Shown: positions 13,270 through 64,000 of the stretch, in pieces
Numbering within the stretch: position 1 is the stretch's first letter
How the letters are laid out: each line of letters starts with the position of its first letter
Source of the DNA: Streptomyces tanashiensis
GTDB taxonomy: Bacteria > Actinomycetota > Actinomycetes > Streptomycetales > Streptomycetaceae
Assembly: GCF_014648895.1 (NCBI RefSeq)
Contig: NZ_BMRZ01000001.1
Location: 868,001 to 932,000 of the forward strand
DNA: 64,000 nt
Direction: 5' to 3'
Made by a program: the position numbers and the translations under genes
The notes under the pieces: model-generated
Database searches by the model: none
The model's input: only the letters and a program-made list of their open reading frames with translations
Told to the model about the DNA's origin: nothing

Positions 13270-13291
13270 GAGTCCGGGCCGTACGGAAGGG

Positions 13292-13444: not shown

Positions 13445-13455
13445 GCATGCCTCCC

Positions 13456-13474
13456 GTAGGTTAGGTACACCTAA
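13456..13474. promoter_or_regulatory. Iron box (DmdR/IdeR-type operator)
   Basis: The 19 bases match TTAGGTTAGGCTCACCTAA at 16 positions, and the core GGTTAGGTACACCTAACC (13459-13476) is a near-perfect inverted repeat. It lies 12-30 bp ahead of the start of the 50-aa ORF on the minus strand. The next gene on the other side is the 3' end of tsaE, so only the small ORF fits as target. Confidence 0.7.
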
Positions 13475-13559
13475 CCAGCTCGTGCATCCATGTGACCACG
13501 GCTCGTGCGACCCACGCAACACCTTCCCGACACGTTGTCGGAACCTACGTACGCCCGCC

Positions 13560-14081: not shown

Positions 14082-14091
14082 ACCCGCAAAC

Positions 14092-15249
14092 CTAGCGCGT
14101 GCGGAAGGTCTCCCCGGCCGGGACGACACCGGCCCGGACCAGCAGGTCGGCCAGCCGGTCGGTCACCGCCTCCGGGTGCTCCAGCATCACCAGATGGCCC
14201 GCGTCCGGGACGATGACCAGCTCCGCGTCCGGCAGGAGGTCCGCGATGGCCTCGGTGTGCGAGCTGGGGGTGACCAGGTCGTTGTCCCCGGCGAGCGCGA
14301 GCACCGGCAGCTCGCCGAAGGCGGCCAGGGCGGCGGCCTTGTCGTGCTCGGCGAAGGCCGGGTAGAAGGCGGCGACCACGTCGATCGGGGTCGACTCGAT
14401 CATCCGCTCCGCGAAGCGGGCGACCGCCGGGTCGACGTCCTTCGAGGCGAACGAGTACTTCTTGATCAGCCCGGCGAAGAGGTCCGCGGTCGCCCGGCGC
14501 CCGCGCTCGACCAGCTCCGCCTGGGAGCCCAGCGCCCGCAGGACGCCCGGCAGGACCCGCCGGACGGCGTTGACGCCGGCGAGCGGCAGCCCGTAGGTCA
14601 CCTCGCCCAGCTTCCCCGCCGAGGTGCCGACGAGCGCGACGCCGACGACCCGGTCGCGGATCAGCTCCGGGTACTGCTCGGCGAGCGCCATCACCGTCAT
14701 GCCGCCCATCGAGTGCCCCACGAGGACGAGCGGCCCCTCGGGCGCGGCCGCGTCGATGACGGTCCTGAGGTCGCGGCCCAGCCGGTCGATGGAGACCGGC
14801 ACCGCGTCGGGCCCGGTCTGCGAGCTCCCGTGCCCGGAGCGGCCGTGGCTGCGCTGGTCCCAGTGGACGGTGCGGACGAGACCGCGCAGGGCGGCCCGCT
14901 GGAAGTGCCAGGAGTCCTGGTTGAGACAGTAGCCGTGGCTGAAGACGACGGTGACGGGAGCGGGTTCGCGACGCCCGAAGAGCCGCCGCCGGCGGGCGAC
15001 CGGGGTGTCCGCCTCGACCTCGTCCACCTCGTAGTACAGGACGGTCCCGTCGTCGGCGAGGGCCCGGCCGGGGGTGCCGCGCAGCCCGCCGTACGGACCG
15101 GTGGCGTCCAGGGCGAGCCGCGCCTTCTGCCGTACGGAACGGCCGACGGTGAGCCGCTCGACGGCGACTCCGGCCGCCGCGCCCGCGGCGAGGACGCCTA
15201 TCGCGGCACCGGCGAACCCCGCACGCCGCCAGCTGCTCGACTCGCCCAC
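14092..15249 (-). CDS. Alpha/beta hydrolase with N-terminal membrane anchor
   Basis: The protein is 385 aa from GTG 15249, 11 bp after alr. An Ala/Gly-rich hydrophobic N-terminus (residues ~10-30) precedes an alpha/beta hydrolase domain. VFSHGYCLNQDSW forms the oxyanion region, GHSMGGMT carries the nucleophile Ser, AGDNDLVTP the acid and DAGHLVMLEHP the His. The conserved placement alr-hydrolase-tsaE suggests one transcript. Substrate is unknown. Confidence 0.85.
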   Translation of the reverse strand: MGESSSWRRAGFAGAAIGVLAAGAAAGVAVERLTVGRSVRQKARLALDATGPYGGLRGTPGRALADDGTVLYYEVDEVEADTPVARRRRLFGRREPAPVTVVFSHGYCLNQDSWHFQRAALRGLVRTVHWDQRSHGRSGHGSSQTGPDAVPVSIDRLGRDLRTVIDAAAPEGPLVLVGHSMGGMTVMALAEQYPELIRDRVVGVALVGTSAGKLGEVTYGLPLAGVNAVRRVLPGVLRALGSQAELVERGRRATADLFAGLIKKYSFASKDVDPAVARFAERMIESTPIDVVAAFYPAFAEHDKAAALAAFGELPVLALAGDNDLVTPSSHTEAIADLLPDAELVIVPDAGHLVMLEHPEAVTDRLADLLVRAGVVPAGETFRTR

Positions 15250-15260
15250 GCCGCCGCCCC

Positions 15261-16409
15261 CTACTCGCCCAGGTAGACGCGCGGGACGCGCGCCCCGATC
15301 CGGGTGACGATCTCGTACGCGATGGTGTCGGCCGCCACCGCCCAGTCCTCGGCGGTCGGCTCGCCCCGGTCGCCGGGACCGAAGAGCACGGCCTCGGTGC
15401 CGGGTTCGGGGGTGTCCCCTTCGAGGTCGACCACGAACTGGTCCATGGCGACGCGGCCGGCGACGGTGCGGACGCGGTCGCCGACGAGGACGGGCCCGCG
15501 CCCCGAGGCGTGCCGGGGAACCCCGTCGGCGTACCCCAGCGGAACGAGCCCCAGGGTGGTCTCGCCCGCCGTGACGTAGTGATGCCCGTAGCTCACCCCG
15601 TGCCCGGCGGGAACGTGCTTGACCAGCGCGACGCTCGCCTTGAGCGACATGACGGGCCGCAGGCCCAGCTCGGCGGAGGTGCCGAGCTCGGGGCTCGGCG
15701 AGACGCCGTACATCGCGATGCCGGGCCGGACCAGGTCGAAGTGGGCCTCGGGCAGGGTCAGGGTGGCCGGCGAGTTCGCGATGTGCCGGACCTCCGGACG
15801 GATCCCCGCCTTCTCCGCGTGGTCGAGCATCGAGCGGAAGACGTCCAGCTGGGCGGCGATGGACGGGTGGTGCGGCTCGTCGGCGCACGCGAAGTGCGAC
15901 CAGAGGCCGGTGACCTTGACGTGCCCGTCGACCTCCGCCTTCAGGGCGGCGCCGACCAGCTCGGGCCAGTCGGCGGGCTGGCAGCCGTTGCGCCCGAGCC
16001 CCGTGTCGGCCTTGAGCTGGATCCGCGCGGTCCTCCCGACCGCCCTCGCGGCCTCGACGACCTCGTCCAGGGCCCACATCCCGCTCACGGACATGTCGAG
16101 ACCGGCCTCGATGCCCTGGTCCCAGGGGTCGCCGGGAGTCCACAGCCAGCACATGACGGGAACGTCCGTGATCCCGGCGGCGCGCAGGGCCAGCGCCTCG
16201 TGCGGGGTGGCCGTGCCGAGCCAGTCCGCGCCCGCGTCCAGGGCGGCGCGGGCGCAGCGCAGGGCGCCGTGTCCGTATGCGTCGGCCTTGACCACGGCCA
16301 TGATCCGGACGTGGGGGGCGACACGGGCGCGCAGCGTGCGGACGTTCGCACGCAGCGCGCCGAGGTCGATCTCGGCGCGGGCCCTGCGGGGCGGAGGTGT
16401 CTCAGTCAT
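15261..16409 (-). CDS. alr: Alanine racemase
   Basis: The protein is 382 aa. It interconverts L- and D-alanine for peptidoglycan, with PLP on the Lys of VVKADAYGHG and the Tyr base in the GVSYGHHYVT region. It is the first gene of a probable alr-hydrolase-tsaE unit. The neighbouring LDT gene, transcribed in the same direction, also acts on peptidoglycan, though only the wall theme links them. Confidence 0.96.
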   Translation of the reverse strand: MTETPPPRRARAEIDLGALRANVRTLRARVAPHVRIMAVVKADAYGHGALRCARAALDAGADWLGTATPHEALALRAAGITDVPVMCWLWTPGDPWDQGIEAGLDMSVSGMWALDEVVEAARAVGRTARIQLKADTGLGRNGCQPADWPELVGAALKAEVDGHVKVTGLWSHFACADEPHHPSIAAQLDVFRSMLDHAEKAGIRPEVRHIANSPATLTLPEAHFDLVRPGIAMYGVSPSPELGTSAELGLRPVMSLKASVALVKHVPAGHGVSYGHHYVTAGETTLGLVPLGYADGVPRHASGRGPVLVGDRVRTVAGRVAMDQFVVDLEGDTPEPGTEAVLFGPGDRGEPTAEDWAVAADTIAYEIVTRIGARVPRVYLGE

Positions 16410-16429
16410 CGCGCCCAGTCTCTCAGGTG

Positions 16430-17332
16430 TCAGCTCCCGGGCCGCTTTCCCCAGATGTAGACCCGGTCACCCTTACGGAGGACGTCCCAGAGTTTCCGTG
16501 CGTCGCGGTGGCTGAGATTGACGCAGCCACGGCTTCCGCCGGGCGTGGCGAGCTGCCCGTAGACGGCGTGGAACGCCTGGCCGCCGCTGAAGAACTGGGC
16601 GTACGGCATGGGCGTGCTGTAGATCGACGACCAGTGGTCCTTGTGGCGCCAGTAGACGGTGTGCCAGCCGGTCCGCGTGGCATACCCCGGCCGTCCGCTC
16701 CGCATGTTGACGACGGGATAGGTCACCTTCTTCCCCTTCTTCACCCACATGAGCTGGCGGTCGAGGTCGACGCAGGCGACGGCGTACTTCCTCTCGGGAC
16801 AGCGGCGGCCCGGGTCGAGCTTCTTCCGGGCGGCGAGCAGCTCGGCGCGGGCCCAGGTGACGGGTCCGGCGTAGCCGACGGCCGGCTTGATCCCCTCCCG
16901 CACCTGGAAGGCGCGGACGGCCCGGCAGTCGGCGACCGACTGCCTCCCGTCGACCGGCAGCCCGAGCAGCCGCTCGACCCGCCGCTGATGGGGGCCCGTG
17001 CGCGCGGTGCAGGCGGCCGCGACGGCGCTGCGGGGCAGGTACTCGACGAGCTCGTCGACCTCCTTCTCCGGCTCGGGCACGGCGACGCCCTCCTCGTCCT
17101 CCTGCAACGGCGGAAGCACCTGGTCGGGCGTGTCCATCGGATACTCGGCCCGCCCGCCCCCGACGACCCCGGGCACGAGCGGATCCTCGGCGGGCACGGG
17201 ATCGGGCGGTGCGGCGAGGGCCACGGGCGCCGGATCGGGCGGGGCGGCGAGGGCCACGGGCCCGGGCGCGAGCGCGAGCGAGGCGGCGAGGGCGAACAAC
17301 AACGGCGCGGTACGGCTTCTCCGACTGATCAC
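16430..17332 (-). CDS. Secreted L,D-transpeptidase with peptidoglycan-binding domain
   Basis: The protein is 300 aa from GTG 17332, which places an Arg-rich then hydrophobic signal peptide (residues ~1-30) at the N-terminus. A Pro/acidic linker and a PG_binding-like segment (VERLLGLPVDGRQ...FQ) precede the YkuD domain. The catalytic region HAVYGQ...SRGCVNLSHRDA is intact, including the His and Cys. It should form 3-3 cross-links or attach proteins to the wall outside the cell. Confidence 0.86.
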   Translation of the reverse strand: MISRRSRTAPLLFALAASLALAPGPVALAAPPDPAPVALAAPPDPVPAEDPLVPGVVGGGRAEYPMDTPDQVLPPLQEDEEGVAVPEPEKEVDELVEYLPRSAVAAACTARTGPHQRRVERLLGLPVDGRQSVADCRAVRAFQVREGIKPAVGYAGPVTWARAELLAARKKLDPGRRCPERKYAVACVDLDRQLMWVKKGKKVTYPVVNMRSGRPGYATRTGWHTVYWRHKDHWSSIYSTPMPYAQFFSGGQAFHAVYGQLATPGGSRGCVNLSHRDARKLWDVLRKGDRVYIWGKRPGS

Positions 17333-17448
17333 CCCACCCACCCAATCCGCCCCCCGCGCCACCAGCGCGCCGGAACCCACGGCTGGGCCAACGGGTTCGC
17401 CCGAGTGGGGGGCGGGGCGGGGCGGACCGCCCCGGCCCTCCTCCGCCA

Positions 17449-17483
17449 CCCGACCCGTACGAGCCGCCCCGCGGACCTACGCG
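17449..17483. repeat. Direct repeat copy 1 (35 bp, period 79)
   Basis: The 35 bases are identical to 17528-17562. The similarity continues imperfectly to the left, so about 79 bp appear to have been tandemly duplicated in the gap between the LDT and nnr genes. Confidence 0.85.
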
Positions 17484-17527
17484 GCGCGTGGGGGCGGGAC
17501 GGACCGGTCCCGGCCCTGCTTCCGCCG

Positions 17528-17562
17528 CCCGACCCGTACGAGCCGCCCCGCGGACCTACGCG
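17528..17562. repeat. Direct repeat copy 2, spanning the nnr stop codon
   Basis: It is identical to 17449-17483. This copy contains the TAG of nnr at 17556-17558, so the other copy is probably the duplicated 3' flank. Confidence 0.85.
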
Positions 17563-19013
17563 CCGCCCGCCGTCACGTCACGCCACGCCCCCCGCAGGGA
17601 GTCCGCCACCTCCGTCGCCGTCACCGGCGCACCGCCCTCCGACGCCCGGCGCGCGGCGAGCCCGTGGAGGTAGGCCGCGCACGAGGCCGCGTCGAGGGCC
17701 GGGAGGCCGGCCGCGAGGAGGGAGCCCGCGAGGCCGGAGAGGACGTCGCCGCTGCCGGCCGTGGCCAGCCACGAGGTCCCGGTCGGGTTGACCCGCACCG
17801 GACCGGTCCCGTCGGCCCCGCACACCACCGTCGTCGAGCCCTTCAGGAGGACCGTCGCGCCGAAGCGGCCCGCCAGTTCACGGACCGCCGCGAGCCGCCC
17901 CGCCTCGACCTCCTCCCGCGCGACGCCGAGCAGCGCCGCCGCCTCGCCGGCGTGCGGGGTGAGGACGGTCGGTGCGCCGCGCCCCCGGACGGCCGCAGGG
18001 TCGAGGCCCCGCAGCCCGTCGGCGTCGACGAGGACCGGGACGTCGGAGGAGAGGACCTCCGCGACCGCTACCCCGGCCCCGGGCCCTTCGCCGAGGCCGG
18101 GCCCCACGACCCAGGCCTGGACCCGCCCGGCCTTCTCCGGCCGCCCCGAGTGGACCAGGGTCTCGGGGTGCGCGGCGAGCACCGCGTCCCCGGCGGGCCC
18201 GACGTACCGCACGGCCCCCGCGCCGCCGCGCAGCGCGCCCGCCACGGCGAGGACGGCGGCGCCCGGGTAGCGGGAGGACCCGGCGACGATGCCGACGACC
18301 CCGCGCCGGTACTTGTCGCTCTCGGCGCCCGGCACGGGCAGCAGCCAGGCGAGGTCCTCGTGCTGGAGGGCCTCCAGATCGGGCACGCCGGGCAGGAGGT
18401 CGCCGAGGCCGATGTCGACGAGGCGCAGGGCACCCGCGTACTCCCGCGCGGGGTCGACGAGCAGCCCCGGCTTGTACGCGCCGAAGGTGATCGTCGCGTC
18501 GGCGGGCAGCGCCTCCCCGTGGACCTCCCCGGTGTCGGCGTCGACGCCGCTCGGCAGGTCCACGGCCACGACGACGGCGTCGGAGCCGCGCGCGGCCCGG
18601 GCGACGGGCACCGCGTCGGGCCGGAGCCCGCCGCGCCCGCCGATGCCGGTGATGCCGTCGAGGACGAGGTCGGCGCCGGCGAGGGGGTCGAACGGGTCGT
18701 CGGCGACCCGGCCTCCGGCGGCCCGGAGCGCCGCGAGCCCGCCCTCGTGGGCGCGGTCGCCGAGCAGCACCGCCGTGACGCCGGCGCCCCGCCGGGCGAG
18801 CCGGGCCCCGGCGTACAGGGCGTCGCCGCCGTTGTCGCCGCTGCCGACGAGCAGGACGACCCTGGCCCCGTACACCCGCCCCTTCCCGAGCAGGGAGCAG
18901 CAGGCGGCGGCGAGGCCGGCGGCGGCCCGCTGCATGAGAGCGCCGTCGGGAAGGCGGGCCATGAGGGCGGCTTCGGCGGCCCGGACGGTCTCGACGCGAT
19001 AAGCGGTACGCAT
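17556..19013 (-). CDS. nnr: Bifunctional NAD(P)H-hydrate epimerase / ADP-dependent dehydratase
   Basis: The protein is 485 aa from ATG 19013. The N-terminal half (~1-215) is the YjeF_N epimerase (GSGDNGGDALYAGARL, AVDLPSGVDADTG). The C-terminal half is the ribokinase-like dehydratase (LTPHAGEAAALLG, LLKGSTTVV, TAGSGDVLSGLAGSLLA). It repairs hydrated NADH and NADPH. It follows glmS and acpS on the same strand after a 154-bp gap. Confidence 0.95.
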   Translation of the reverse strand: MRTAYRVETVRAAEAALMARLPDGALMQRAAAGLAAACCSLLGKGRVYGARVVLLVGSGDNGGDALYAGARLARRGAGVTAVLLGDRAHEGGLAALRAAGGRVADDPFDPLAGADLVLDGITGIGGRGGLRPDAVPVARAARGSDAVVVAVDLPSGVDADTGEVHGEALPADATITFGAYKPGLLVDPAREYAGALRLVDIGLGDLLPGVPDLEALQHEDLAWLLPVPGAESDKYRRGVVGIVAGSSRYPGAAVLAVAGALRGGAGAVRYVGPAGDAVLAAHPETLVHSGRPEKAGRVQAWVVGPGLGEGPGAGVAVAEVLSSDVPVLVDADGLRGLDPAAVRGRGAPTVLTPHAGEAAALLGVAREEVEAGRLAAVRELAGRFGATVLLKGSTTVVCGADGTGPVRVNPTGTSWLATAGSGDVLSGLAGSLLAAGLPALDAASCAAYLHGLAARRASEGGAPVTATEVADSLRGAWRDVTAGGA

Positions 19014-19167
19014 GCCAGCAGTCTGCCCCGCGCCCGGGCCCCGCGCCCGTGTGAGCGGCGCCCCCGCCCTTGTGGGCAATCGTTCCGCAGGGCGGAACGG
19101 GTGGGCACAACGGCGGGGCGCCGCCCACGGCAGACGGGCACCCCGCGCGGGCGCGGCGCCCGGCGCT

Positions 19168-19536
19168 CTAGCCCTCCGCGATCACCACCGCCGACGCCAC
19201 CCCCGCGTCATGGCTCAGCGACACGTGCCAGTGCTTCACGCCCAGTTCCGCCGCCCGCGCCGCCACCGTCCCCTGGACCCGCAGCCGGGGCTGTCCGGTG
19301 TCCTCGACGTACACCTCGGCGTCCGTCCAGTGCAGTCCGCCCGGCGCGCCGAGCGCCTTCGCGAGCGCCTCCTTCGCGGCGAAGCGGACCGCGAGCGAGG
19401 CGGGCCCGCGCCGTTCGCCGCTCGGGAGCGTCACCTCGCGCTCGACGAAGAGGCGCTGCAGCAGCCCCGGTGTGCGCTCGATGGACGCGGCGAAGCGGTC
19501 GATCTCCGCCACGTCGATCCCCACCCCAATGATCAT
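19168..19536 (-). CDS. acpS: Holo-[acyl-carrier-protein] synthase
   Basis: The protein is 122 aa. It transfers 4'-phosphopantetheine from CoA to a Ser of acyl carrier proteins. GIGVDVxEIDRF is present as [12 protein letters not shown] with the Mg-binding Asp, and [13 protein letters not shown] is the second signature. It lies 7 bp after glmS, so the two are cotranscribed. Confidence 0.96.
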
Positions 19537-55121: not shown

Positions 55122-55171
55122 TACTTCTCCGGTTTCTGTGTGCCGTCGGTAAAACTAACCTGGAACATTCA

Positions 55172-55196
55172 CCGACCCACGCGGTCGGGTGTGTCG
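55172..55196 (-). promoter_or_regulatory. Leader hairpin shared by rpsL and rpsJ
   Basis: Partner of 46468-46492 with one difference in 25. It lies inside the predicted rpsL transcript leader, so it acts as RNA if it has a function. Confidence 0.6.
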
Positions 55197-55314
55197 AATC
55201 TCGCGGACCTCCGCCAGGGGCGGAAAAAGCGCGGATCACGGTGGCCGATATATGACTCGCCGTGCGGTTGAGGACACGCACGGGAGCCCAGGCACACCCC
55301 AGGCACAAGGCATG

Positions 55315-55343
55315 AGCGTACCTATCGCATGGACTCCGGTCAA
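55315..55343 (-). promoter_or_regulatory. rpsL promoter
   Basis: TTGACC (55343-55338), 17 nt, TACGCT (55320-55315) on the minus strand, a good housekeeping match. Confidence 0.7.
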
Positions 55344-55454
55344 AACAAATGCCCACGCGCACGTGGTCCCGGCCGGAGCGGGCCGGGACCAGGGCGGATC
55401 GTTCCGGCACCCCGGGGAGGGCCGCCGGTCGCGGGCGGTGGCGGCCGGTCGCGG

Positions 55455-55904
55455 TCAGTCGCGGGCGGTACGCCTCGACTCGGCGGCGGCGGGGGCGTCG
55501 GCACCCTCGGCGTCGGGCTCCAGGAACTGGTTCACGACCTTGACGAAGACGCCCAGGCGCTCGTCGGGGACGCCGAGCCAGCGGGCGAAGTCCTCCATGG
55601 TCGGCTGCCAGTCGTTGGGCGGCAGCAGGTCCGCCGCCAGCGGAAGCTCCTCGGGGGTCACCCGGCCGGACCGGATCAGCATGTCGCGCACGGACACCCC
55701 GAGGAGGGGCGCGATCCGGCGCATGGTCTCCAGGTCCGGCATGCTCTGCCGCTGCAGCAGCCGCGTGACGGCGGCGCGGTGCACTCCGGCCTCGTCCGCG
55801 ATGCGGGACTTCCCGCCGCCGCGGGGGCTGTCGATGTCGTATCCGCGCGCCCGCATCAGGCCCTCGACCCAGCCTGCGAACTCGTCGAGCCCTTGAGTGC
55901 TCAT
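55455..55904 (-). CDS. XRE-family helix-turn-helix regulator
   Basis: The protein is 149 aa from ATG 55904, with GAGGAG 9 nt upstream. The HTH lies near residues 32-75 (SRIADEAGVHRAAVTRLLQR, then DLETMRRIAPLLGVSVRDML). The C-terminal part is a possible dimerisation segment. It diverges from the WhiB-like gene, and three copies of an 18-bp near-palindrome lie between them, with a fourth ahead of the tail genes. It is the probable repressor or master regulator of the tail locus. Confidence 0.82.
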   Translation of the reverse strand: MSTQGLDEFAGWVEGLMRARGYDIDSPRGGGKSRIADEAGVHRAAVTRLLQRQSMPDLETMRRIAPLLGVSVRDMLIRSGRVTPEELPLAADLLPPNDWQPTMEDFARWLGVPDERLGVFVKVVNQFLEPDAEGADAPAAAESRRTARD

Positions 55905-55946
55905 GTTGTACCGCTCCTCGCTCCCCACCCTTCGGATCCCATACCT

Positions 55947-55964
55947 TAGCGTGCTTGCGCGCAC
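55947..55964. promoter_or_regulatory. Operator-like palindrome, copy a
   Basis: TAGCGTGC-TT-GCGCGCAC fits the consensus TTGCGTGC-N2-GCACGCAA at 13 of 16 arm positions. A minus-strand -10-like TAAGGT overlaps its left edge, consistent with autoregulation of the XRE gene. Confidence 0.55.
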
Positions 55965-55972
55965 AGAATTAC

Positions 55973-55990
55973 GTGCTTTCGGGCACGCAA
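55973..55990. promoter_or_regulatory. Operator-like palindrome, copy b
   Basis: The right arm GCACGCAA matches the consensus exactly; the left arm is weaker. A CGTGC-N6-GCACG inverted repeat overlaps it. Confidence 0.5.
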
Positions 55991-56036
55991 CCGTGTCGAA
56001 TCGGTGAAGACCAGTTCACGGGGGTGTCGAATTTTG

Positions 56037-56054
56037 TTGCGCGCTCGCACGCAA
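56037..56054. promoter_or_regulatory. Operator-like palindrome, copy c, over the WhiB promoter
   Basis: TTGCGCGC-TC-GCACGCAA is a palindrome with one mismatched pair. Its first six bases can serve as a -35 (TTGCGC), with TAAGTC 16 nt downstream as -10 for the WhiB-like gene. Confidence 0.65.
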
Positions 56055-56155
56055 CGTGTAAGTCTGGCTCGCCGCCGCACTCGTCGGCCCCCCGAGCCAC
56101 AGGAGCCCCATCGGCCCCATGGGCCCGGGCGGGCCCCGGACCGTGGAGAACTCCC

Positions 56156-56431
56156 TTGTTCCATCCCGACCCGTCCCCCTGGCAGGCCTCCGCCGCGTGC
56201 GCCGGCCTCTCCCCGTCCGTCGTCTTCGCCCGCCGCGCCAAGGAGGCGGCCCCGGCTCTGCGGGCCTGCGCCGACTGCCCCGTGCGCCGCGAGTGCGAGT
56301 CCGCCGTGGCCCCGGCCGAGAGCTACTTCGACGGCGTCTGCGCGGGCCGCCTCTGGCGCAACGGCCGCCCGGCGGACGCCCAGCGCGTCGCGAAGGCGGT
56401 CGCGGCGGCGGGGAGCGGCCGCCGTGGCTGA
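56156..56431 (+). CDS. WhiB-like iron-sulfur protein
   Basis: The protein is 91 aa from TTG 56156, the only start near GGAG (8 nt upstream) in the open frame. Four Cys follow the WhiB pattern: C15, then C38-x2-C41-x5-C47 (RACADCPVRREC), expected to hold a [4Fe-4S] cluster. The usual GVWGG turn reads GVCAG (FDGVCAGRLW), adding a fifth Cys. It stands first in a coupled three-gene unit next to the XRE gene. Confidence 0.78.
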   Translation: MFHPDPSPWQASAACAGLSPSVVFARRAKEAAPALRACADCPVRRECESAVAPAESYFDGVCAGRLWRNGRPADAQRVAKAVAAAGSGRRG

Positions 56432-57218
56432 CCGCACCGAGGACACCACCGGCGCCCACCGCACCGCCGTCGCCCCGGCGGCAGCGTCCGCCGCCACCCG
56501 TACCGTCGAGCTCGTCCTGCGGGACATCGCGCTCTGGACGGCCTCTCTCGTACGGCAGTTCCCCGAGCTGTCGGAGGAGCTGGCGCCCGGCCGCCGCTCC
56601 CCCGCCGGCACCGCGCCCACCGCCCCGCACCCGGGCCGCGACGAGCTCATCCGCGAGGAGCGGCGCGAGGCGCTGCTCCTCGAACAGCGCCACGGCCTGT
56701 CCGTCCCCGGGCACGGCGCCGCCCCGATCCGGCTGCACATCTCCGACGCCATCCGGGACATCACCGACGGCGTGGTGGAGCTGGAGGAGGCGGTCTGCGC
56801 CCGTCTCGCGCTGCCGCGGCCGCGCCGGGCCGGGGTGATCGAGCGGCTGCGCCGGATCGTCGGGCTGCTCGACACCGTCGCCGGGCACCCGGACCTCGCC
56901 CGGCACGTCCGGGACGAGATCCGGCGGATGGCCCGCCGGTGCGCCCGGACGCTCGGCGACGCGGAGACGGTCGTGCGGGTGACGGGCCGCTGCCCCTGGT
57001 GCGACTCGGTGTCGCTGCGGGCGTTCCCGGACCGGCGGGCGGTGCTGTGCGTGAACCCGGCGTGCGTCTGCACGGACGCGGCGTGCGGCTGCCAGGACGA
57101 CCCCGCGTACCGGCACCTGTGGCCGGAGGGCCAGTGGGAGGAGCTGTCGGAGGCCTCGGGGACCGGTACCGAGGAGATCCGGGCGGCGATGGACGACACG
57201 AAGGAGACCTCATGCTGA
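56424..57218 (+). CDS. Hypothetical protein with zinc-ribbon-like Cys cluster
   Basis: The protein is 264 aa from GTG 56424, overlapping the WhiB stop by 8 bp. The first two thirds are helical and Arg/Ala-rich. Near the C-terminus CPWC and a series of further Cys (NPACVCTDAACGCQDD) suggest zinc binding. No family was recognised. Genes of this type occur beside regulators in actinophages, which fits the tail locus. Confidence 0.65.
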   Translation: MADRTEDTTGAHRTAVAPAAASAATRTVELVLRDIALWTASLVRQFPELSEELAPGRRSPAGTAPTAPHPGRDELIREERREALLLEQRHGLSVPGHGAAPIRLHISDAIRDITDGVVELEEAVCARLALPRPRRAGVIERLRRIVGLLDTVAGHPDLARHVRDEIRRMARRCARTLGDAETVVRVTGRCPWCDSVSLRAFPDRRAVLCVNPACVCTDAACGCQDDPAYRHLWPEGQWEELSEASGTGTEEIRAAMDDTKETSC

Positions 57219-57424
57219 GCTCGCCCGCACTGCCCGCCCTTCCGGCGCTGATCCCGGGGCCGCTGGCCGCCGTGGAGGCGGGCGTCGCGCCCGCGACGAT
57301 CCGCAAGTGGGTCCAGCTGGGCCATCTGCGGGCGGCGGGCCGGGCCGGCCGGGCCCAGCTCTTCCGCCTGGAGGACGTCTTCGCGGCGGAGCGGCTGGCC
57401 CGCCGCCGCCCCCGTACGGCCTGA
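57212..57424 (+). CDS. Small MerR/excisionase-like DNA-binding protein
   Basis: The protein is 70 aa. ATG 57212 has AAGGAG 6 nt upstream and overlaps the preceding stop. The segment AAVEAGVAPATIRKWVQLGH followed by FRLEDVFAAER is a winged helix of the MerR/HTH_17 type. It is too small for an effector domain. A terminator follows at 57441. Confidence 0.7.
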   Translation: MLSSPALPALPALIPGPLAAVEAGVAPATIRKWVQLGHLRAAGRAGRAQLFRLEDVFAAERLARRRPRTA

Positions 57425-57440
57425 TCCCGCCGCCTCTCCT

Positions 57441-57476
57441 GAAGCGCCCCGCGTCCCTCCGGACGCGGGGCGCTTC
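57441..57476. terminator. Bidirectional terminator, 16-bp perfect stem
   Basis: Arms 57441-57456 and 57461-57476 with a 4-nt loop lie between the convergent HTH and ATP-grasp genes. Confidence 0.9.
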
Positions 57477-57485
57477 GCCGTTCCG

Positions 57486-58313
57486 TCAGGAGGCCTTCAG
57501 GAAGGCCCGGAGGGAGCGGACGAGTGCGTCGGCGAAACGTTCGCGCACCGGCTCGGGGACGCGGTCCAGGGAGAGGTACGGGTTGAGGTCCTCCAGCTCG
57601 ACGAGGAGCAGCTCGCCTCCGGGGGCGCGGCAGGCGTCGACGCGCTGGATGCCGTGGTCGAGGGTGTTCCAGTCGATGAAGCGACGCGCGAAGTCGAGGT
57701 CGTCGGCGGTCGGTTCGTACGGCTCCAGGACCCAGCGGCGCTCGGGGTCGGGGGCGTACAGGGCGTACTGGAAGCGGTCGTCGACGAAGTAGAAGGAGAC
57801 CTCGTACCGGAAGTCGACGCGCGGCTGGACGAGGAGCTCGCCGTACGAAAGGCCGGCGAGCTCCTCGTACGCCAGGAAGCGCAGGCCTATGGAGTCGGCA
57901 CCCGCCTTGGGCTTGACCGCGTACGCGGCCGCTTCGGGCAGGCGGTGCAGGTCCTCGGCCCGGTCGACGGTGGGGATGACGGGGTACCCGGCGGCCGTCA
58001 GGTCAAGGAGGTACTGCTTGCCGGCCATGTCGCCGCGGCCGTGCAGGGGGTTGTAGACGAGGGTGCCGAGCGCCGTCGCCCGCTCGCGGAAGGCGTCGTA
58101 CGCCTCCTGGTGGCCGAGGACCGGGCCGCTGTTGCGGACGACGACGGCGTCGAAGGCGTCCATGAGGGCGGCGGCGTCGAGCGGGTGACAGAGCGCCAGG
58201 TCGAAGTCGGCGCGCAGCCGGGCGGTGAGGTGGATGTCCTCGTCGCAGTAGCGCCGGCCCCGGGCCGGGTAGGCGAGGTCGGTCACGTAGAGCAGTCGGG
58301 GGCGGGCGGACAC
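57486..58313 (-). CDS. ATP-grasp-fold protein
   Basis: The protein is 275 aa from GTG 58313. An N-terminal pre-ATP-grasp region (LLYVTDLAYPARGRRYCDED) precedes the ATP-grasp core: AAAYAVKPKAGADSIGLRF for nucleotide binding and LLVELEDLNPYLSLD for Mg-binding Glu/Asn. Such enzymes ligate a carboxylate to an amine or thiol. Substrate is unknown. It sits between the regulators and the tail structural genes in opposite orientation. Confidence 0.72.
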   Translation of the reverse strand: MSARPRLLYVTDLAYPARGRRYCDEDIHLTARLRADFDLALCHPLDAAALMDAFDAVVVRNSGPVLGHQEAYDAFRERATALGTLVYNPLHGRGDMAGKQYLLDLTAAGYPVIPTVDRAEDLHRLPEAAAYAVKPKAGADSIGLRFLAYEELAGLSYGELLVQPRVDFRYEVSFYFVDDRFQYALYAPDPERRWVLEPYEPTADDLDFARRFIDWNTLDHGIQRVDACRAPGGELLLVELEDLNPYLSLDRVPEPVRERFADALVRSLRAFLKAS

Positions 58314-58404
58314 GGGGCGGCTCCTGGGTCGGGTGCCGCCAACCTATCGAGGGGTGCCCGGGGGGCCGCTCGCCGGGCCGTACGGAAGACCGCCTCCGAA
58401 TTAG

Positions 58405-58422
58405 TTGCGTGCGCGCACGCTC
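58405..58422. promoter_or_regulatory. Operator-like palindrome, copy d, ahead of tail genes
   Basis: TTGCGTGC-GC-GCACGCTC matches the consensus at 14 of 16 arm positions. It lies 167 bp before the first tail gene and 92 bp before the ATP-grasp start, with TTGCGT usable as a -35 on the plus strand. Confidence 0.6.
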
Positions 58423-58588
58423 CCTGTCACAGTTGGTGCAGCGGCGGAGCTGTGCCCGCGAGACGGGCCGCAGTCTCCGCCGTCCGCCGTCCGGGAGCGC
58501 TCCGCGCCCCCGCCCCTCCCCCGCGTCGAGCGCCCCGGACGGCACCCCGCACCACCCGTCCCGCTCCCCCCTTCCGAGGAGAACCGTC

Positions 58589-58996
58589 ATGACCACTCCC
58601 CCGAGTGCGTTCCCGGACGTCGAGAAGCTGGTCGTCGACGTCCTCAAGGCCGACCCGGCCCTGGCCGGGATCACGGTCGCCGTCCAGGCGCCGGCCGGCT
58701 TCGACGGCACGCAGAACGCCGTCCTGGTGAACCGCCGCGGCGGCGCCTGGATCGGCGACCTGCACGTCGACAAGCCGCTGGTCGAGTTCGAGGTGTACGG
58801 GCCGACCAAGAACGCGGCCCACGTCCTCGCCAACGCCGCCCGGCGGGCGCTGCTCGCCACCATCGGCAAGCAGCTCGGCGCCACCTTCGTCAGCGACGTC
58901 GAGGAGCAGGACGGGCCGCGCTGGATGCCCGACTACCTCTACCGGGGCGCCAACCGCTACCTCTGCGTCATCCAGCTCTCGCTGAACGTCTTCTGA
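58589..58996 (+). CDS. Phage tail terminator / tail completion-like protein
   Basis: The protein is 135 aa from ATG 58589 (GAGGAG upstream). Features such as FPDVEKLVVDVLKADPALAG at the start and YLCVIQLSLNVF at the end, the size and the position directly before the tail tube gene resemble siphophage tail terminator or head-tail joining proteins. Assignment rests mainly on gene order. Confidence 0.6.
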   Translation: MTTPPSAFPDVEKLVVDVLKADPALAGITVAVQAPAGFDGTQNAVLVNRRGGAWIGDLHVDKPLVEFEVYGPTKNAAHVLANAARRALLATIGKQLGATFVSDVEEQDGPRWMPDYLYRGANRYLCVIQLSLNVF

Positions 58997-59076
58997 GCCC
59001 GCTCCCCCGGGCGCCTCTCCGCCCCTGAGCGCCCCCGAGCCCGCACGGCTCCCTGACGGGCGCTCACCCACAGACC

Positions 59077-59100
59077 AGGCCTCGCCGTCCGGCGGGGCCT
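59077..59100 (+). terminator. Hairpin between tail terminator-like and tail tube genes
   Basis: An 11-bp stem with one G-U pair is followed by TTT. It may reduce or reset transcription before the tube gene. Confidence 0.5.
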
Positions 59101-59164
59101 TTGCCGTACCCGGACCCGATGTCCAGGGCGGTCATCCCACCCCACCCCAAGGAGAAACCCCACC

Positions 59165-59776
59165 ATGGCTGGAAACAACTCTGCCGAGATCCGCGTCGCA
59201 GGCACCGGCAAGCTCTACGTCGCCGACGCCGGCACCTCCGCCCCGGCCACCTTCGGCACGGACTCCGCCGCCGACTGGTCCGGCGCGGGCTGGAAGGACC
59301 TCGGCTTCACCTCCGGCGACGGCGTCACCTTCTCGAAGAAGGACAAGCTGGAGGCCATCGACTCGTGGCAGTCGGTCTCCCCGATCCACTACATCTACTC
59401 GAGCCGTGACCTCTCGCTGAAGTTCTCGCTGCTCCAGTTCAACGAGGACACGCTGCCCTTCTTCATGGGCGGCGACGCCGTCAAGGCGGAGCCGACGCCG
59501 GCCGTCGACACCTACCGCTACGAGATCGCCGAGCGTCCGTTCGCCGACGTCCGCGCCCTCGGCCTGGAGTTCACCGACGTCAAGGCCGGCGGCACGACCG
59601 CGGTGCGCTACCGCTTCATCATCCCGCGCGGTCAGGTCACCGCCACCGACGACATCAAGCTGGCCCGCAAGGCGGCGTCCCAGCTGGGCATCACCTTCAG
59701 CGCGATGTCGAAGGGTGACGGCAAGCCGCTGGCGACCTTCCTCATGAAGGACAGCCAGTACTCCGCGACCGTCTGA
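59165..59776 (+). CDS. Phage major tail tube protein
   Basis: The protein is 203 aa. The start SAEIRVAGTGKLYVADAGTS and a mid-segment in which the GDGVTFSKKDKLEAIDSWQS residues are followed by alternating beta strands match actinophage tail tube proteins. It would polymerise to form the tail shaft. No sheath gene precedes it, which argues for a non-contractile tail. Confidence 0.82.
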   Translation: MAGNNSAEIRVAGTGKLYVADAGTSAPATFGTDSAADWSGAGWKDLGFTSGDGVTFSKKDKLEAIDSWQSVSPIHYIYSSRDLSLKFSLLQFNEDTLPFFMGGDAVKAEPTPAVDTYRYEIAERPFADVRALGLEFTDVKAGGTTAVRYRFIIPRGQVTATDDIKLARKAASQLGITFSAMSKGDGKPLATFLMKDSQYSATV

Positions 59777-59864
59777 TCCCTCTCCCCCCGGGGCGGGACG
59801 GCGCACCGCCGTCCCGCCCCACCCCTCTCCTCTTCACGCATCCGAACAAGGAGTACGCATCACC

Positions 59865-60155
59865 ATGGCCCGTTTCGACGTCAACGCCGCCCGCGCCCAG
59901 CGACAGGAGGCCCACGGCCGCAAGTGGTCCTTCGAGCTGGACGGCGAGACCTACACCCTTCCGACCGAGCTGAGCCGCGGCACCGCCAAGGCGCTGCGCA
60001 AGCTCGACGACAACGACGTGGACGGCCTGCTCGCACTCCTGATGGGTGAGGAGCAGTTCTCCCGCTTCGAGCAGCACGACATCACCATGCAGGACATCGC
60101 CGCCATCCTGGAGGCCTACGGCAAGGAGACCGGGCTCGGCCTGGGGGAAGACTGA
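59865..60155 (+). CDS. Tail assembly chaperone, short form (gpG-like)
   Basis: The protein is 96 aa. In siphophages a short chaperone gene always lies between the tube and the tape measure, and the small size and acidic helical C-terminus fit. It ends GLGLGED at TGA 60153. A G-run just before the stop would allow -1 frameshifting into the next frame to make the long form. Confidence 0.75.
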   Translation: MARFDVNAARAQRQEAHGRKWSFELDGETYTLPTELSRGTAKALRKLDDNDVDGLLALLMGEEQFSRFEQHDITMQDIAAILEAYGKETGLGLGED

Positions 60156-60583
60156 GCCTCGTCGAGTTCGTCGACGAACACGCCGAGGCCCTTGAGGCGG
60201 ACTTCCTCCGCTACTACTCCACCGATCTGCTCGACTGGCACCGCGGCGAGCTCTCCAGCCGTCGCGTCGTGCTGCTGATCAAGCATCTGCCGCGGGACAG
60301 CGCCGTACAGCGCGAGATCCACGGCGAGACCGCCGAATGGTCGATCACCGACCATCTCCTCGCGGCCACGGTGGACCATCTGGCCGTGGCGAACTGGATG
60401 TTCGCCTGCGTCAACACCGGCGAGGACTCCGACCCGCCGGAGGCTCCGACGCCCGTCCCCCGCCCGGGAGGACGGGACGACGAGGACGAGGACGGAGAGC
60501 GAGCGGACCAGGACGGGCAGAGGCCGTCCGCCGGGGAGGGCAAGGTCGTCTCCCCCCAGGCCATCGCCCGCTTCTTCGGGTGA
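59865..60583 (+). CDS. Tail assembly chaperone, frameshifted long form (gpGT-like)
   Basis: The -1 frame is open from the slip site to TGA 60583 and codes for a convincing protein (SLVEFVDEHAEALEADFLRY, then LLIKHLPRDSAVQREIHGE). It has no ATG, GTG or TTG before 60269, 114 bp after the short form's stop. Expression therefore needs a -1 shift near 60143-60149, giving about 239 aa. The C-terminal half is acidic. The long form would recruit tube subunits onto the tape measure, as lambda gpGT does. Confidence 0.72.
60143..60149 (+). other. Predicted -1 ribosomal frameshift site
   Basis: G-GGG-GAA in the zero frame, 4 bases before the TGA. The P-site GGG codon can re-pair perfectly one base back, while the A-site pairing is imperfect, so it is not a canonical X-XXY-YYZ site. 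Confidence 0.6.
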
Positions 60584-60590
60584 TCCCGCG

Positions 60591-60632
60591 GCCCCCGGAG
60601 CCCCTTCCCGTCAGGGAGTGGGCTCCGGGGGC
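60591..60632. terminator. Bidirectional terminator after the chaperone gene
   Basis: A 13-bp perfect outer stem (60591-60603 with 60620-60632) encloses a second small hairpin. It overlaps the last codons of the minus-strand gene at 60611. Confidence 0.8.
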
Positions 60633-61420
60633 GCTTCTTCCCGTCCTCGCTCGGCGCTCATGTCCTTCTCCAGGGCCCTGGCCCGGTCGGACAGCCTCCG
60701 CCCCCTGCTCGCGCGCGCGTCCGGTTCGCCCGGGTCGGCGTCGCGCCGGTCGGCGGACGGTCCGACCTGGACCGGCACCCCGGCCAGCGGCGGCACGATC
60801 GGCCGGCCGCCCTTGCCGCGCACGACCTTCCGTACCGGCTGGACGTTCCGGCGGGTCCGGCTCTCCTGGGCGGTCACGAGGACGTCCGGCTCCGTGTCGG
60901 CCTCGGACTCCTTCTGGTGCTCGGGCTCCGGCTCGGGCTCGGCCCGCTGGCCCGTCGCGGGGTCGGCCCGATGTCCGGGCTCGGCCCGCTGTTCGAACAG
61001 CTCGCGTTCCCTGCGGACGCGCTCCTCGGCCTCGACGACGGCCGCGGGCGGTTCGAGGAGCCGGGCGAAGGGCAGCGCGATGACCCGCGCGCCCTCCTGG
61101 CCGGCGTCGGTACGGCGCTGGGGCCGGCGGATTCCACGCGCGTCACCCTGCCCCTGCGCGTAGGCGTCGGCGACGCGCTTCTCGTACTCCCTGCGGATGC
61201 GCGGCAGTTCGTCCGAGACGGCCTCGGCCCATCCGGACGTGAAGGCGGACGTCTCCCGTCGGTCGACCTCGGCCCTGGGGATCACGACGAGTTCCTCGGG
61301 GGCGTACCCGGAGACGTGGACGAGCTCCGAGAGATAGGCGAAGAGGTGGGGCAGATCGGGGTGGGACGCAAGCCAGTCGACGACCCGCTCCCGGCGACCA
61401 GCGCCCGGCTCCGTATCCAT
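60611..61420 (-). CDS. Hypothetical protein with an RRET-GW motif, 269 aa
   Basis: No family was recognised. Residues 54-68 (RRETSAFTSGWAEAV) match a motif in the plus-strand gene at 61725, which supports both as real genes. Residues ~100-230 are charged and Glu/Pro/Arg-rich, probably disordered or coiled-coil. It lies inside the tail operon but on the opposite strand, so it may be regulatory or an accessory insertion. Confidence 0.6.
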   Translation of the reverse strand: MDTEPGAGRRERVVDWLASHPDLPHLFAYLSELVHVSGYAPEELVVIPRAEVDRRETSAFTSGWAEAVSDELPRIRREYEKRVADAYAQGQGDARGIRRPQRRTDAGQEGARVIALPFARLLEPPAAVVEAEERVRRERELFEQRAEPGHRADPATGQRAEPEPEPEHQKESEADTEPDVLVTAQESRTRRNVQPVRKVVRGKGGRPIVPPLAGVPVQVGPSADRRDADPGEPDARASRGRRLSDRARALEKDMSAERGREEAPPEPTP

Positions 61421-61724
61421 GCGTCAGTGCTGCCTTCCAGCCCCCTGGGGTCCCCGCGCGCCCCTCGCGCCCCTCGCCCCCCAAAGTGGTCCGGTCCGGG
61501 GAACGCGGCTTCCAGGTTACCCGGTCGAACTCACGGCCGTTTCTGGCGCCAACACGTTCGGATATCGCACAAGAAGACACGCCGTCAGACGTTTCCCGCT
61601 CGACAAACATCGAACAGATGTTCCACACTCTGTTCGCACAGCAGTTCGAACACGTGGTGCCCCCGCTCCTCACTCCGCGGCGCCGCCACACCCGCACGGG
61701 CAAGCAACCGGAAGGCAGGCGTCC
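61421..61724. other. Divergent promoter region with LexA-like box
   Basis: This 304-bp gap between the two RRET-GW genes is noticeably richer in A/T in its middle. It contains the LexA-like box and an additional GTTCGAAC palindrome. No gene was found. Confidence 0.65.
61610..61625. promoter_or_regulatory. LexA-like SOS box
   Basis: TCGAAC-AGAT-GTTCCA differs from the actinobacterial/Gram-positive consensus TCGAAC-N4-GTTCGA at one position. It lies 100 bp before the gene at 61725. Confidence 0.55.
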
Positions 61725-61937
61725 ATGACTCAGCAGGCCGAGGCATCCCGACCGCACATCCCGCTCCAGGACCGCCTCCGCCAGCTCCTCGACGGACCCG
61801 TCGCCCTCGACAAGAGAGCGTTGCTCGGCACGCTGTACGCCGAGGTCTCCCGCCGCGAGACCCTCGCGTACGCCGCCGGCTGGAACGACGCCCTCGCGAC
61901 GACGCGCCGCGGCCCCCGCCGATCCGAGGACGCCTAG
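61725..61937 (+). CDS. Small RRET-GW motif protein, 70 aa
   Basis: ATG 61725 has GGAAGG 9 nt upstream. Residues 43-57 (RRETLAYAAGWNDAL) match the motif of the divergent 269-aa protein. The rest is a short helical segment and basic C-terminus. Function is unknown. A terminator follows. Confidence 0.65.
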   Translation: MTQQAEASRPHIPLQDRLRQLLDGPVALDKRALLGTLYAEVSRRETLAYAAGWNDALATTRRGPRRSEDA

Positions 61938-61962
61938 CGCCCCGGCTGCCCCCGCACGAACG

Positions 61963-61991
61963 AGCCCTTGCCGCTACCGGCAGGGGCTTTT
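61963..61991 (+). terminator. Intrinsic terminator before the 316-aa tail-locus gene
   Basis: An 11-bp stem with one G-U pair (61963-61973 with 61978-61988) is followed by four T residues. Confidence 0.75.
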
Positions 61992-62029
61992 CGGCGCTTG
62001 GCCGTCACCGGCCGGAAGCGGAGCAATCC

Positions 62030-62980
62030 ATGGCAGAAACGATCGCGGATCTCTCGAAGGAGATCACCTCCCTCAGGGACGCCCTCCTCAAGGACCGGGT
62101 CGACAACAGCGACCCCAAGAACCCGAAGACGCAGGTCTCCGAACTCAAGGAACACCTCGTCCAGCAGGCCCCGAAGCTCATGACCGAGGACTTCTTCAAG
62201 GCGCAGTTCGCCCCTTACTTCAAGAAGTTCGACGACATGCACCAGGAGCTCGTCAAGGCGAAGAAGACGGAGTGGATGGAGGCCGCCGGTCTCGGCAGCT
62301 TCGCGGCCGCCGTCGAGAAGTTCCACGAGGACAGCGTCTGGTGGCCCGTGTACCTCGTGTCGGGCTTCCTCAGCCTCGCCGTCCCGGCGTTCCTCATCGC
62401 CGTGGCGTTGAACCTCAAGGACCTGCAGCGGAAGATCCAGGGCGGGATCTTCAACTGGCTCGGCCGCAAGTGGCCCAGCCTGCGAGGTCAGATCCTGGCC
62501 AGCGTGGAGGGTGGCCTCATCCCCCGCCGTCAGAACGCCCAGACGGTCAGGGATCGCGAGGCGGGCAACCTCGCCGGCGTGACCCTCACCAACCCGCCGG
62601 ACCCGGCGACCTTCGACGCGCTCAAGCGGGCCCTCGGCGACATCAACCGCCGGATCATCAACTTCAACAAGGCCGTCGCCAAGATGAAGAGCAAGGCCCA
62701 GCTCGACAAGCTGGCCACCGGCGTCGAGGCGATCACCAGGGCCACGGACGCCGCGAAACCCACGGACATCGAGACGCTGGCCAAGGCCATCGACAAGCTC
62801 GGTGACGCCCAGACCAAGTTCAACCCGCGCGACGTCCCCAAGCCCCGCCCGCTTCTTGCGACGGCCGACGCCGCCAGGACCCTCGCCGAGGCCGGCGAGA
62901 CCGTCACGCAGAGGTTCCAGAAGCTCAAGGACGACGCCGCCGAGCTGGCCCGCCTCATGGCCGGCGGCGCCTCGTCCTGA
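62030..62980 (+). CDS. Hypothetical tail-locus protein with one membrane-like helix
   Basis: The protein is 316 aa from ATG 62030 (GGAGC upstream). The N-terminal ~90 residues are helical and charged, probably coiled-coil. A strongly hydrophobic helix lies near residues 104-128 (WWPVYLVSGFLSLAVPAFLI). The C-terminal half is Lys/Ala-rich helical. It sits directly before the tape-measure gene (30 bp). A membrane helix is unusual for a tail structural protein; it may aid assembly or release. Confidence 0.65.
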   Translation: MAETIADLSKEITSLRDALLKDRVDNSDPKNPKTQVSELKEHLVQQAPKLMTEDFFKAQFAPYFKKFDDMHQELVKAKKTEWMEAAGLGSFAAAVEKFHEDSVWWPVYLVSGFLSLAVPAFLIAVALNLKDLQRKIQGGIFNWLGRKWPSLRGQILASVEGGLIPRRQNAQTVRDREAGNLAGVTLTNPPDPATFDALKRALGDINRRIINFNKAVAKMKSKAQLDKLATGVEAITRATDAAKPTDIETLAKAIDKLGDAQTKFNPRDVPKPRPLLATADAARTLAEAGETVTQRFQKLKDDAAELARLMAGGASS

Positions 62981-63010
62981 CCCCCACCCACCTGGAAAGG
63001 AGGTACTCCC

Positions 63011-64000
63011 ATGTCTCTCGTCAGTGCCCTCAAGAAGTCGTCCGACGGCCTGCGCAACATCAAGACCCAGGCGTCCGGCGCCGGCACCTCGATCAAGAAG
63101 GTCGGCGACGCCGGCAAGTCGGCGTCCAGTCAGCTCAAGACGCTCCGTACCAACGCTCAAGGCTCCAACACCCAGCTCAAGAACCTCAAGACGGCCTCGG
63201 AGCAGGCCGAGCGCGCCATGAAGAAGGCCGGCGACACCGCTCAGTCGGCCGGCGGCAAGCTCGGCAAGTACGAGTCCGGCGCCGGCAAGGCCGCAAAGGG
63301 CCAGGACAAGCTCAACAAGTCCATGAAGGGCAACTTCCTGGTCCGGCTGCTCGAACTCTTCATGCCGCTCATCGAGACGATCGTCGAGATGGCGATGCGC
63401 TCGAAGACGATGCAGACGGTCATGAAGAAGGCGTTCAGCGCCATCAAGACCGTGATCAGCTCGGTCATGAAGGCCATCGGCCCGATCATGAAGCAGGCCG
63501 GCGCCCTCATCAAGACGGTCTGGAACGGCATCAAGAAGGCCATCTCCACCGTCGTGAAGGCCGTCGCCACGGTCATCAAGACGTACGTGAAGATCTGGAA
63601 GACGGTCATCACCACGGTGATGAACGCGATCAAGAGCGTCATCAGCGCCGTCTGGAACGGCATCAAGGCCGTCATCACCCCGGTGGTGAACTGGATCAAG
63701 TCCGCGATCCCGAGCGCGTTCACCGCCGTCAAGGACAAGATGTCGTCCATCTGGAACGGCCTCAAGGACATCGCGTCCCGGGCGTTCGACGGCATCAAGA
63801 GCGGTGTGAAGGGCCCGATCAACGCCGTCATCGGCCTCATCAACTCGATGATCGGCAGCCTCAACCGCGTCAAGGTCAGCGTCCCCGGCTGGGTCCCCGT
63901 CGTCGGCGGCAAGACCTTCGGCGTCAACCTGCCGACCATCCCGATGCTCGCCACCGGTGGTGTCGTCATGCCCCGCCACGGCGGTGTCCCGGCGATCCTC
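63011..64000 (+). CDS. Phage tail tape-measure protein, 3' truncated by window
   Basis: ATG 63011 has a near-perfect AAGGAGGT 7 nt upstream. The 330 visible codons have no stop. The N-terminus is helical with Ser/Lys/Ala repeats (SLVSALKKSSDGLRNIKTQA). The middle carries many I-K-T-V-x-x-A/V amphipathic heptads and W-N-G-I-K repeats, as in tape measures. LATGGVVMPRHGG near the window end is a common tape-measure motif. It would set tail length and enter the target cell membrane. Confidence 0.85.
   Translation, partial: MSLVSALKKSSDGLRNIKTQASGAGTSIKKVGDAGKSASSQLKTLRTNAQGSNTQLKNLKTASEQAERAMKKAGDTAQSAGGKLGKYESGAGKAAKGQDKLNKSMKGNFLVRLLELFMPLIETIVEMAMRSKTMQTVMKKAFSAIKTVISSVMKAIGPIMKQAGALIKTVWNGIKKAISTVVKAVATVIKTYVKIWKTVITTVMNAIKSVISAVWNGIKAVITPVVNWIKSAIPSAFTAVKDKMSSIWNGLKDIASRAFDGIKSGVKGPINAVIGLINSMIGSLNRVKVSVPGWVPVVGGKTFGVNLPTIPMLATGGVVMPRHGGVPAIL

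Follow-up and report, generated by a model that had tools for sequence, protein, structure and literature searches.

A conserved GGGGGAA slip site and downstream hairpin in the tail assembly chaperone gene of a Streptomyces tail cluster: a probable programmed -1 frameshift

Known chaperone frameshifts and the Streptomyces locus

The slip motif of the phage lambda tail chaperone gene G/GT is GGGAAAG. The -1 frameshift of this gene is covered in part of a review (PMC5009743), and a section of another report gives measured efficiencies of 6 and 7% for two genes of an HK97-like chaperone cluster (PMC3711429). Actinobacteriophages provide closer parallels. According to portions of the PRFect paper (PMC10885494), GGGGGAA is the sole sequence among about 1000 'fivetwo' motifs in the SEA-PHAGES data, and the same portions discuss G:U pairing for this heptamer. 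Part of a report on corynephage phi16 describes GGGGGAA in gp14A, among tail assembly genes, together with an internal Shine-Dalgarno (SD) sequence and a proposed H-type pseudoknot (PMC5506516). We found no published account of the Streptomyces cluster or frameshift described below in open-licence PMC text, which is weak evidence of absence.

We analysed a stretch of 64,000 nucleotides (the window) from the 9.0-Mb genome of Streptomyces tanashiensis. Judging from its sequence, we consider it very probable that the tail assembly chaperone gene in this window is subject to programmed -1 ribosomal frameshifting of the lambda G/GT kind. Both the mechanism and the GGGGGAA motif were already known; what is new is the conserved hairpin with its compensatory changes, and the setting in a tail cluster with no head genes that we could recognise. 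As in lambda G/GT, a two-part chaperone gene lies ahead of a tape measure gene, with a second, overlapping -1 frame that lacks a usual nearby start and encodes a T-like extension. The gene sits between those for the major tail protein and the tape-measure-like protein, with open frames at 60611-61420 (minus strand), 61725 and 62030 intervening on the latter side. The locus differs from lambda in its slippery heptamer, which is GGGGGAA and lies close to where gene 1 ends, in a conserved hairpin 6 nt 3' of this heptamer, and in its surroundings, a bacterial tail cluster where we recognised no head genes. A sequence-only reading of the window had called the slip sequence non-canonical, which is formally correct in that GGGGGAA does not follow X XXY YYZ (a strict form is found only in some relatives), but the heptamer is a published actinophage motif in the relevant part of PMC10885494.

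Four phage genomes were inspected, and in each (Rowa, Turbido, Ponzi and HunterDalle) the chaperone gene is annotated as joined from two pieces. In Turbido and HunterDalle, which belong to the 'fivetwo' type, the heptamer, gene and frame are all as here and a hairpin is likewise predicted behind the slip site; the differences are that these are phage genomes and that their gene 1 extends further beyond the slip site before its stop. The Streptomyces phages Rowa and Ponzi share the joined gene and the same junction but differ by a classical GGGAAAC. The phi16 gp14A case resembles the present one in its heptamer, internal SD, downstream RNA structure and tail assembly genes, and differs in that a pseudoknot was proposed there, whereas our search, which covered pseudoknot-free structures, gives a simple hairpin. 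More broadly, matches in a phage collection comprised 7 records for gene 1 and 875 for the -1 part.

The two frames in the window have the arrangement that the sequence-only reading proposed (Table 1). Family matches identify gene 1 and the -1 frame as the first and second half of a siphophage tail assembly chaperone, and the modelled fusion also matches known chaperones, so that the proposed identity of the pair is supported. The second frame, which is indeed at -1 relative to gene 1, stays open between 60050 and a stop at 60581-60583. At the junction, third-position GC passes from frame 0 to frame -1. Past the gene-1 stop, the first ATG, GTG or TTG in the -1 frame is a GTG at 60269, 114 bases beyond the end of the stop; the claimed lack of a start over this distance thus holds for the three usual codons, and a CTG is present at 60152, where it overlaps the gene-1 stop. 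The run of five G was also correctly noticed, although it lies 6-10 bases before the stop (60143-60147) and not 4-8, a small miscount. Annotation that relies on start codons would miss the second protein or begin it wrongly.

Table 1. Features of the chaperone locus and adjacent tail genes (window coordinates)
Feature	Position	Strand	Basis or remarks
Tail terminator	58589-58996	+	phrog_123, E 2e-20
Major tail (tube) protein	59165-59776	+	PF25681, E 3e-58; phrog_117, E 6e-36
Tail assembly chaperone, zero-frame product (G-like), 96 aa	59865-60155	+	phrog_10551 tail assembly chaperone, E 6e-28
Whole fusion, modelled, 239 aa	59865-60583	+	phrog_5813, E 6e-30, residues 22-214, one co-linear stretch across the junction
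AAGGAG, possible internal Shine-Dalgarno-like stimulator, 14 nt 5' of slip site	60123-60128	+	Sequence; putative role
Slippery heptamer G GGG GAA	60143-60149	+	Kept with gene 2 at -1 in 122/129; actinophage motif
-1 frame part (T-like) of the frameshift product	60149-60583	+	phrog_5813, E 1e-26
6-nt spacer, including gene-1 stop TGA (60153-60155)	60150-60155	+	Sequence
Hairpin	60156-60189	+	Outer stem 60156-60161/60184-60189; middle 60163-60164/60181-60182; inner 60166-60169/60176-60179
Protein in cluster	62030-62980	+	No Pfam family over cut-off; no PHROG below E 0.05
Tape-measure-like protein, runs past the window (403 aa in locus L002)	63011-64000	+	phrog_1535, E 7e-28, whole protein

Under the proposed mechanism, the majority of ribosomes would read gene 1 to its stop and yield the 96-aa chaperone, while a minority would pause at the hairpin 6 nt ahead and slip on G GGG GAA. 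The tRNA-Gly would re-pair from GGG to GGG and the tRNA-Glu from GAA to GGA by way of a G:U pair, or the P-site tRNA might slip alone. Slipped ribosomes would then read AGA CTG AGC CTC and produce the 239-aa fusion with its T-like domain. By analogy, the slip efficiency is probably a few per cent. The hairpin may serve to stimulate slippage, and both products presumably act in loading tail-tube subunits onto the tape measure.

Conservation of the slip site, codons and hairpin

The heptamer GGGGGAA occurs five times in the window when both strands are counted, but only the copy at 60143-60149 has a perfectly matched 6-bp stem 4-9 nt behind it. This copy is also the only G GGG GAA in frame among the 2272 codons of eight open frames of the window taken as genes. 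Given its stem, its frame and its conservation, we reject a chance occurrence.

Among 129 distinct bacterial matches to gene 1, gene 2 lies at -1 in 124. Alongside those with GGGGGAA in this layout (Table 1), two have GGGAAAC and five have other arrangements; leaving out sequences found solely by slip-pattern search, the corresponding numbers are 109, 2 and 5 of 116. The five exceptions consist of two decayed copies (L141 and L142, in which the gene-1 stop is lost, gene 1 is degenerate and gene 2 is truncated while the GGGGGAA letters remain), one with an apparent 1-nt deletion upstream and GGGGGAA still in place (L157), one with a deletion spanning the junction (L163), and one copy without gene 2 (L150, on G504:C21). 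This last is an additional zero-frame chaperone copy with no slip site and no gene 2 found alongside, in a genome that also carries the full chaperone pair; it apparently occupies the same place as L208 of Streptomyces sp. R302.

Searches by other routes gave similar results. Gene 1 found 27 carriers among 150 genomes of the genus, and GGGGGAAGRCTGAGCCTCG is present in 26 of these; the 27th holds a distant homologue, also with GGGGGAA. A profile of gene-1 residues 1-90, which leaves the slip site out of the query, matched in two overlapping samples, 82 of 384 genomes at the level of the genus and 57 of 293 at that of the order. As a pattern control, 392 genomes of the genus were searched for CTGGGGGAAGRCTGAGCCTCG with at most two mismatches; 91 contain it, and the reversed pattern turned up in a handful. 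Among the best 80 of 168 named gene-1 carriers, a sample that overlaps the others, 78 bear the name Streptomyces, and the slip site, gene 2 at -1 and the stem occur together in 78. The remaining two are a copy without gene 2 and Streptomyces sp. P3 (L209), which has four G instead of five and gene 2 out of the -1 register. All 10 relatives on viral contigs combine GGGGGAA with a gene 2 at -1, and the nine distant ones retain R-L-x-L at -1 just past the slip, ahead of a displaced stop. The sequence-only reading had named loss of the G run in homologues that keep both frames as evidence against frameshifting. Wherever gene 2 is at -1, we find either the run or the classical GGGAAAC; the one apparent loss is that of Streptomyces sp. 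P3, which could be a homopolymer sequencing error or a real loss.

Codon-level constraint was examined in 119 intact, distinct bacterial homologues, with base changes counted on a tree built without the junction region. This set omits L141, L142, L157, L163, L150, the partial L058, the distant L029, L143, L164 and L165, and phage L030. The omission list was compiled after the junctions were inspected, and the motif TGGGGGAA was demanded of each row; no row outside the list failed. Among the omitted, L143 and L165 have GGGAAAC, and L029, L058 and L164 have GGGGGAA. Gly94 is GGG and Glu95 is GAA in all 119 rows, which had to contain the motif; in these genes as a whole, GGG makes up 30% of Gly codons and GAA 25% of Glu codons. 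The five largest excesses of codon conservation among 95 amino-acid-conserved columns fall at residues 98, 94, 99, 107 and 97, which correspond to the slip site, the spacer and the two arms of the stem. The gene-1 stop overlaps residue 97 and reaches the first base of 98, which explains part of the excess at these two; residues 94, 99 and 107 are free of this overlap.

Of the 119 homologues, 58 have A and 61 have G directly after GGGGGAAG, and the tree requires at least 14 switches between the two. In frame 0 the codon before the stop is accordingly GAC or GGC (Asp or Gly), whereas in the -1 frame AGA and AGG both encode Arg, without exception. Because these switches always preserve the -1 Arg, the shift should lie upstream of the Arg codon, although part of the pattern reflects mutational bias, since A/G switches are transitions. 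Over residues 109-135 in the -1 frame, the differences divide among codon positions 1, 2 and 3 as 0.23, 0.12 and 0.65 (from sequence pairs that are non-independent). This stretch precedes every usual start after the junction in the window, but not in all homologues; an in-frame ATG, GTG or TTG occurs at -1 before residue 105 in 15 of 119. The AAGGAG upstream of the slip site is not universal, as Lys87 is found in 80% and Glu88 in 86% of the 119 homologues, and where present these residues are always encoded by AAG and GAG.

The sequence-only reading had the slip site alone as the frameshift signal, and to this we add the conserved hairpin that begins 6 bases 3' of the heptamer. Its outer 6-bp stem, GCCTCG/CGAGGC, can pair in all 119 homologues, being identical in 118 and containing one G-U pair in the other. 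When outer, middle and inner pairs are taken together, 98.8% of 1200 cells (100 distinct rows) pair, compared with 29-50% when the structure is slid along the alignment. In the chromosomal rows, six of the 12 pairs never vary and one inner pair changes on both sides (U-A in 72 and C-G in 24 of 100 rows). This represents at least three changes on the tree, too few to support a test of independent pairs. The case for the hairpin therefore relies on codon-level constraint and on compensations in viral relatives. With the latter included (11 rows), three pairs change on both sides, for example U-A for G-C in the outer stem, though the outermost pair is unpaired in six of 11 rows and another pair in five. 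The covariation score of these rows exceeds all 500 shuffles and all slides, while the number of pairs changed on both sides is unremarkable, being reached in 152 of 500 shuffles.

Among 45-nt segments at 90 offsets from the slip site, the one at +6 has the lowest mean folding energy over the 119 homologues (-23.0 kcal/mol), although other segments come close (-22.3 kcal/mol at +90). The window's own hairpin is not exceptionally stable for its composition (z -0.89, with 34 of 200 shuffles as good), whereas the hairpins of six homologues give z scores of -1.8 to -4.5 against shuffles. Most of eight distant relatives that were folded have a hairpin shortly 3' of the slip site, with -12 to -30 kcal/mol over 60 nt. 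RNAalifold also predicts structure on the 5' side. An Rfam scan of 59800-60700 returned a single sub-threshold match (E 0.84), located elsewhere.

Alternative explanations of the frame break

The main and only serious rival is translational coupling, in which the second protein would start at the CTG at 60152, overlapping the stop as CTGA, with the G run acting as a ribosome-binding site. CTGA-like overlaps are a common coupling layout, the CTG is present in 118 of the 119 homologues, and the overlap recurs in Turbido, Ponzi, L029 and L164 and at the displaced stop of viral relatives. Such an overlap is expected in any case, since any gene ending in C plus TGA creates one. The exception among the homologues is L040 (G276, a draft of about 1770 contigs), where TCG replaces the gene-1 TGA and gene 1 is seven codons longer; its junction lacks a CTG and the displaced stop, a TAG, creates none, yet it retains the slip site, the hairpin and the -1 frame. 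A CTG is likewise absent from the junctions of Rowa, HunterDalle and L143, whose stops are TAA or TAG. We had considered the viral relatives as an exclusion of this start, given that they have no CTG at the homologous codon, but set this aside because the displaced stop restores the CTGA overlap. Layout alone cannot settle the matter, as other relatives, viral ones included, have CTGA, and the A/G pattern weighs more. Coupling leaves unexplained why GGG GAA is fixed at the codon level, why only A/G changes that preserve the -1 Arg are seen 5' of the CTG, and why R-L-x-L is retained at -1 upstream of the viral CTG; moreover, the chaperone profiles span the junction. On this evidence we regard a CTG start as improbable.

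Slippage of RNA polymerase on the G run, which would add or drop a G and place the fused frame in some of the mRNA, has in its favour the presence of a homopolymer and the four-G run of Streptomyces sp. P3. A run of five is short for such slippage, relatives with GGGAAAC at the same junction lack a run of this kind, and a hairpin at 6 nt with a fixed GAA is what ribosomal slippage would lead one to expect, so we give this explanation very little credence. A sequencing error or pseudogene could be suspected from the decayed or indel-bearing copies seen elsewhere (L141, L142, L157 and L163), but the same break in 122 of 129 distinct sequences and the codon-level constraint on both halves run against it; a pseudogene is excluded by this conservation, and the idea as a whole retains next to no probability. 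Within programmed ribosomal frameshifting, our preferred explanation, one variant deserves mention. Instead of both tRNAs slipping in tandem, only the P-site tRNA might move, from GGG to GGG, after which GGA would be read as Gly in the A site. GGG-to-GGG re-pairing is perfect and GAA-to-GGA requires G:U, which favours this variant, while GAA in 119 of 119 homologues suggests that the A-site tRNA matters. We think it rather unlikely but well worth keeping in mind, and its share is counted within our confidence in frameshifting because it is a form of the same feature.

The tail cluster and its biological meaning

The tail and lysis cluster covers 55122-64000 of the window and 9011-19334 of locus L002, and lies between rpsL-rpsG-fusA and rpoB. 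The genes fusA, rpsG and rpsL (Pfam) are on the minus strand, as is rpoB downstream of the cluster (L003). The plus strand carries a series of siphophage-type tail genes. They encode the tail terminator and the major tail protein, both chaperone parts and two tape-measure-like proteins, then a minor/distal tail protein and three fibre-like proteins that belong to a single family; a further minor tail protein and an endolysin complete the series. In stretches from other genomes, many of which are too short to tell, rpsL is near the cluster in 12 of 49. The cluster proteins that were scanned, a subset of the open frames, are tail or lysis proteins or have no family, and no head gene was recognised among them; PHROGs does class the fibre-like proteins under head and packaging, as 'virion structural protein'. 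Phage_portal has no match in the genome, and Phage_capsid has one, on another contig far from the tail cluster (G000:C3:562373-563179, L256).

Several other features of the cluster deserve description. The tape-measure-like proteins are two short ones in tandem (403 and 420 aa, L002 9011-10222 and 10219-11481), whereas a viral relative (L248 5672-10078) has one 1468-aa open frame at the corresponding position; the comparison suggests a short tail or a split tape measure. The three tandem fibre-like proteins (L002 12609-16226), whose best match in every case is phrog_3398, look like a receptor-binding repertoire. The minus-strand frame at 60611-61420, inside the cluster, encodes 269 aa and has no family match; it has matches in 13 of 49 stretches from other genomes, some at another place. 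Beside the cluster lie a WhiB-like protein (PF02467, 56135-56428) and an HTH phage-repressor-like protein (55455-55964), which are candidate regulators of it, and a WhiB-like protein is near the cluster in 19 of the 49 stretches.

The locus offers a clean and testable frameshift cassette (G GGG GAA, 6 nt, hairpin) that is native to a GC-rich, antibiotic-producing genus. Natural variants, including a changed stop, a missing gene 2, GGGAAAC and altered hairpins, could be used to dissect the signal. One would not expect synonymous sites in the slip site and stem to stay fixed in a cluster that had fallen out of use, and we therefore argue that the tail cluster is in use and not decaying. It is possibly an F-tailocin-like particle kept by the host. 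Our broader proposal, which we advance tentatively and with somewhat less than even confidence, is that about one-fifth of sampled Streptomyces species may carry a domesticated, headless, non-contractile F-tailocin-like tail, in some cases beside the rpsL-rpsG-fusA operon. Selection at the RNA level on the slip-plus-hairpin cassette would then fix the ratio of the two chaperones, making the frameshift signal the best conserved part of the gene.
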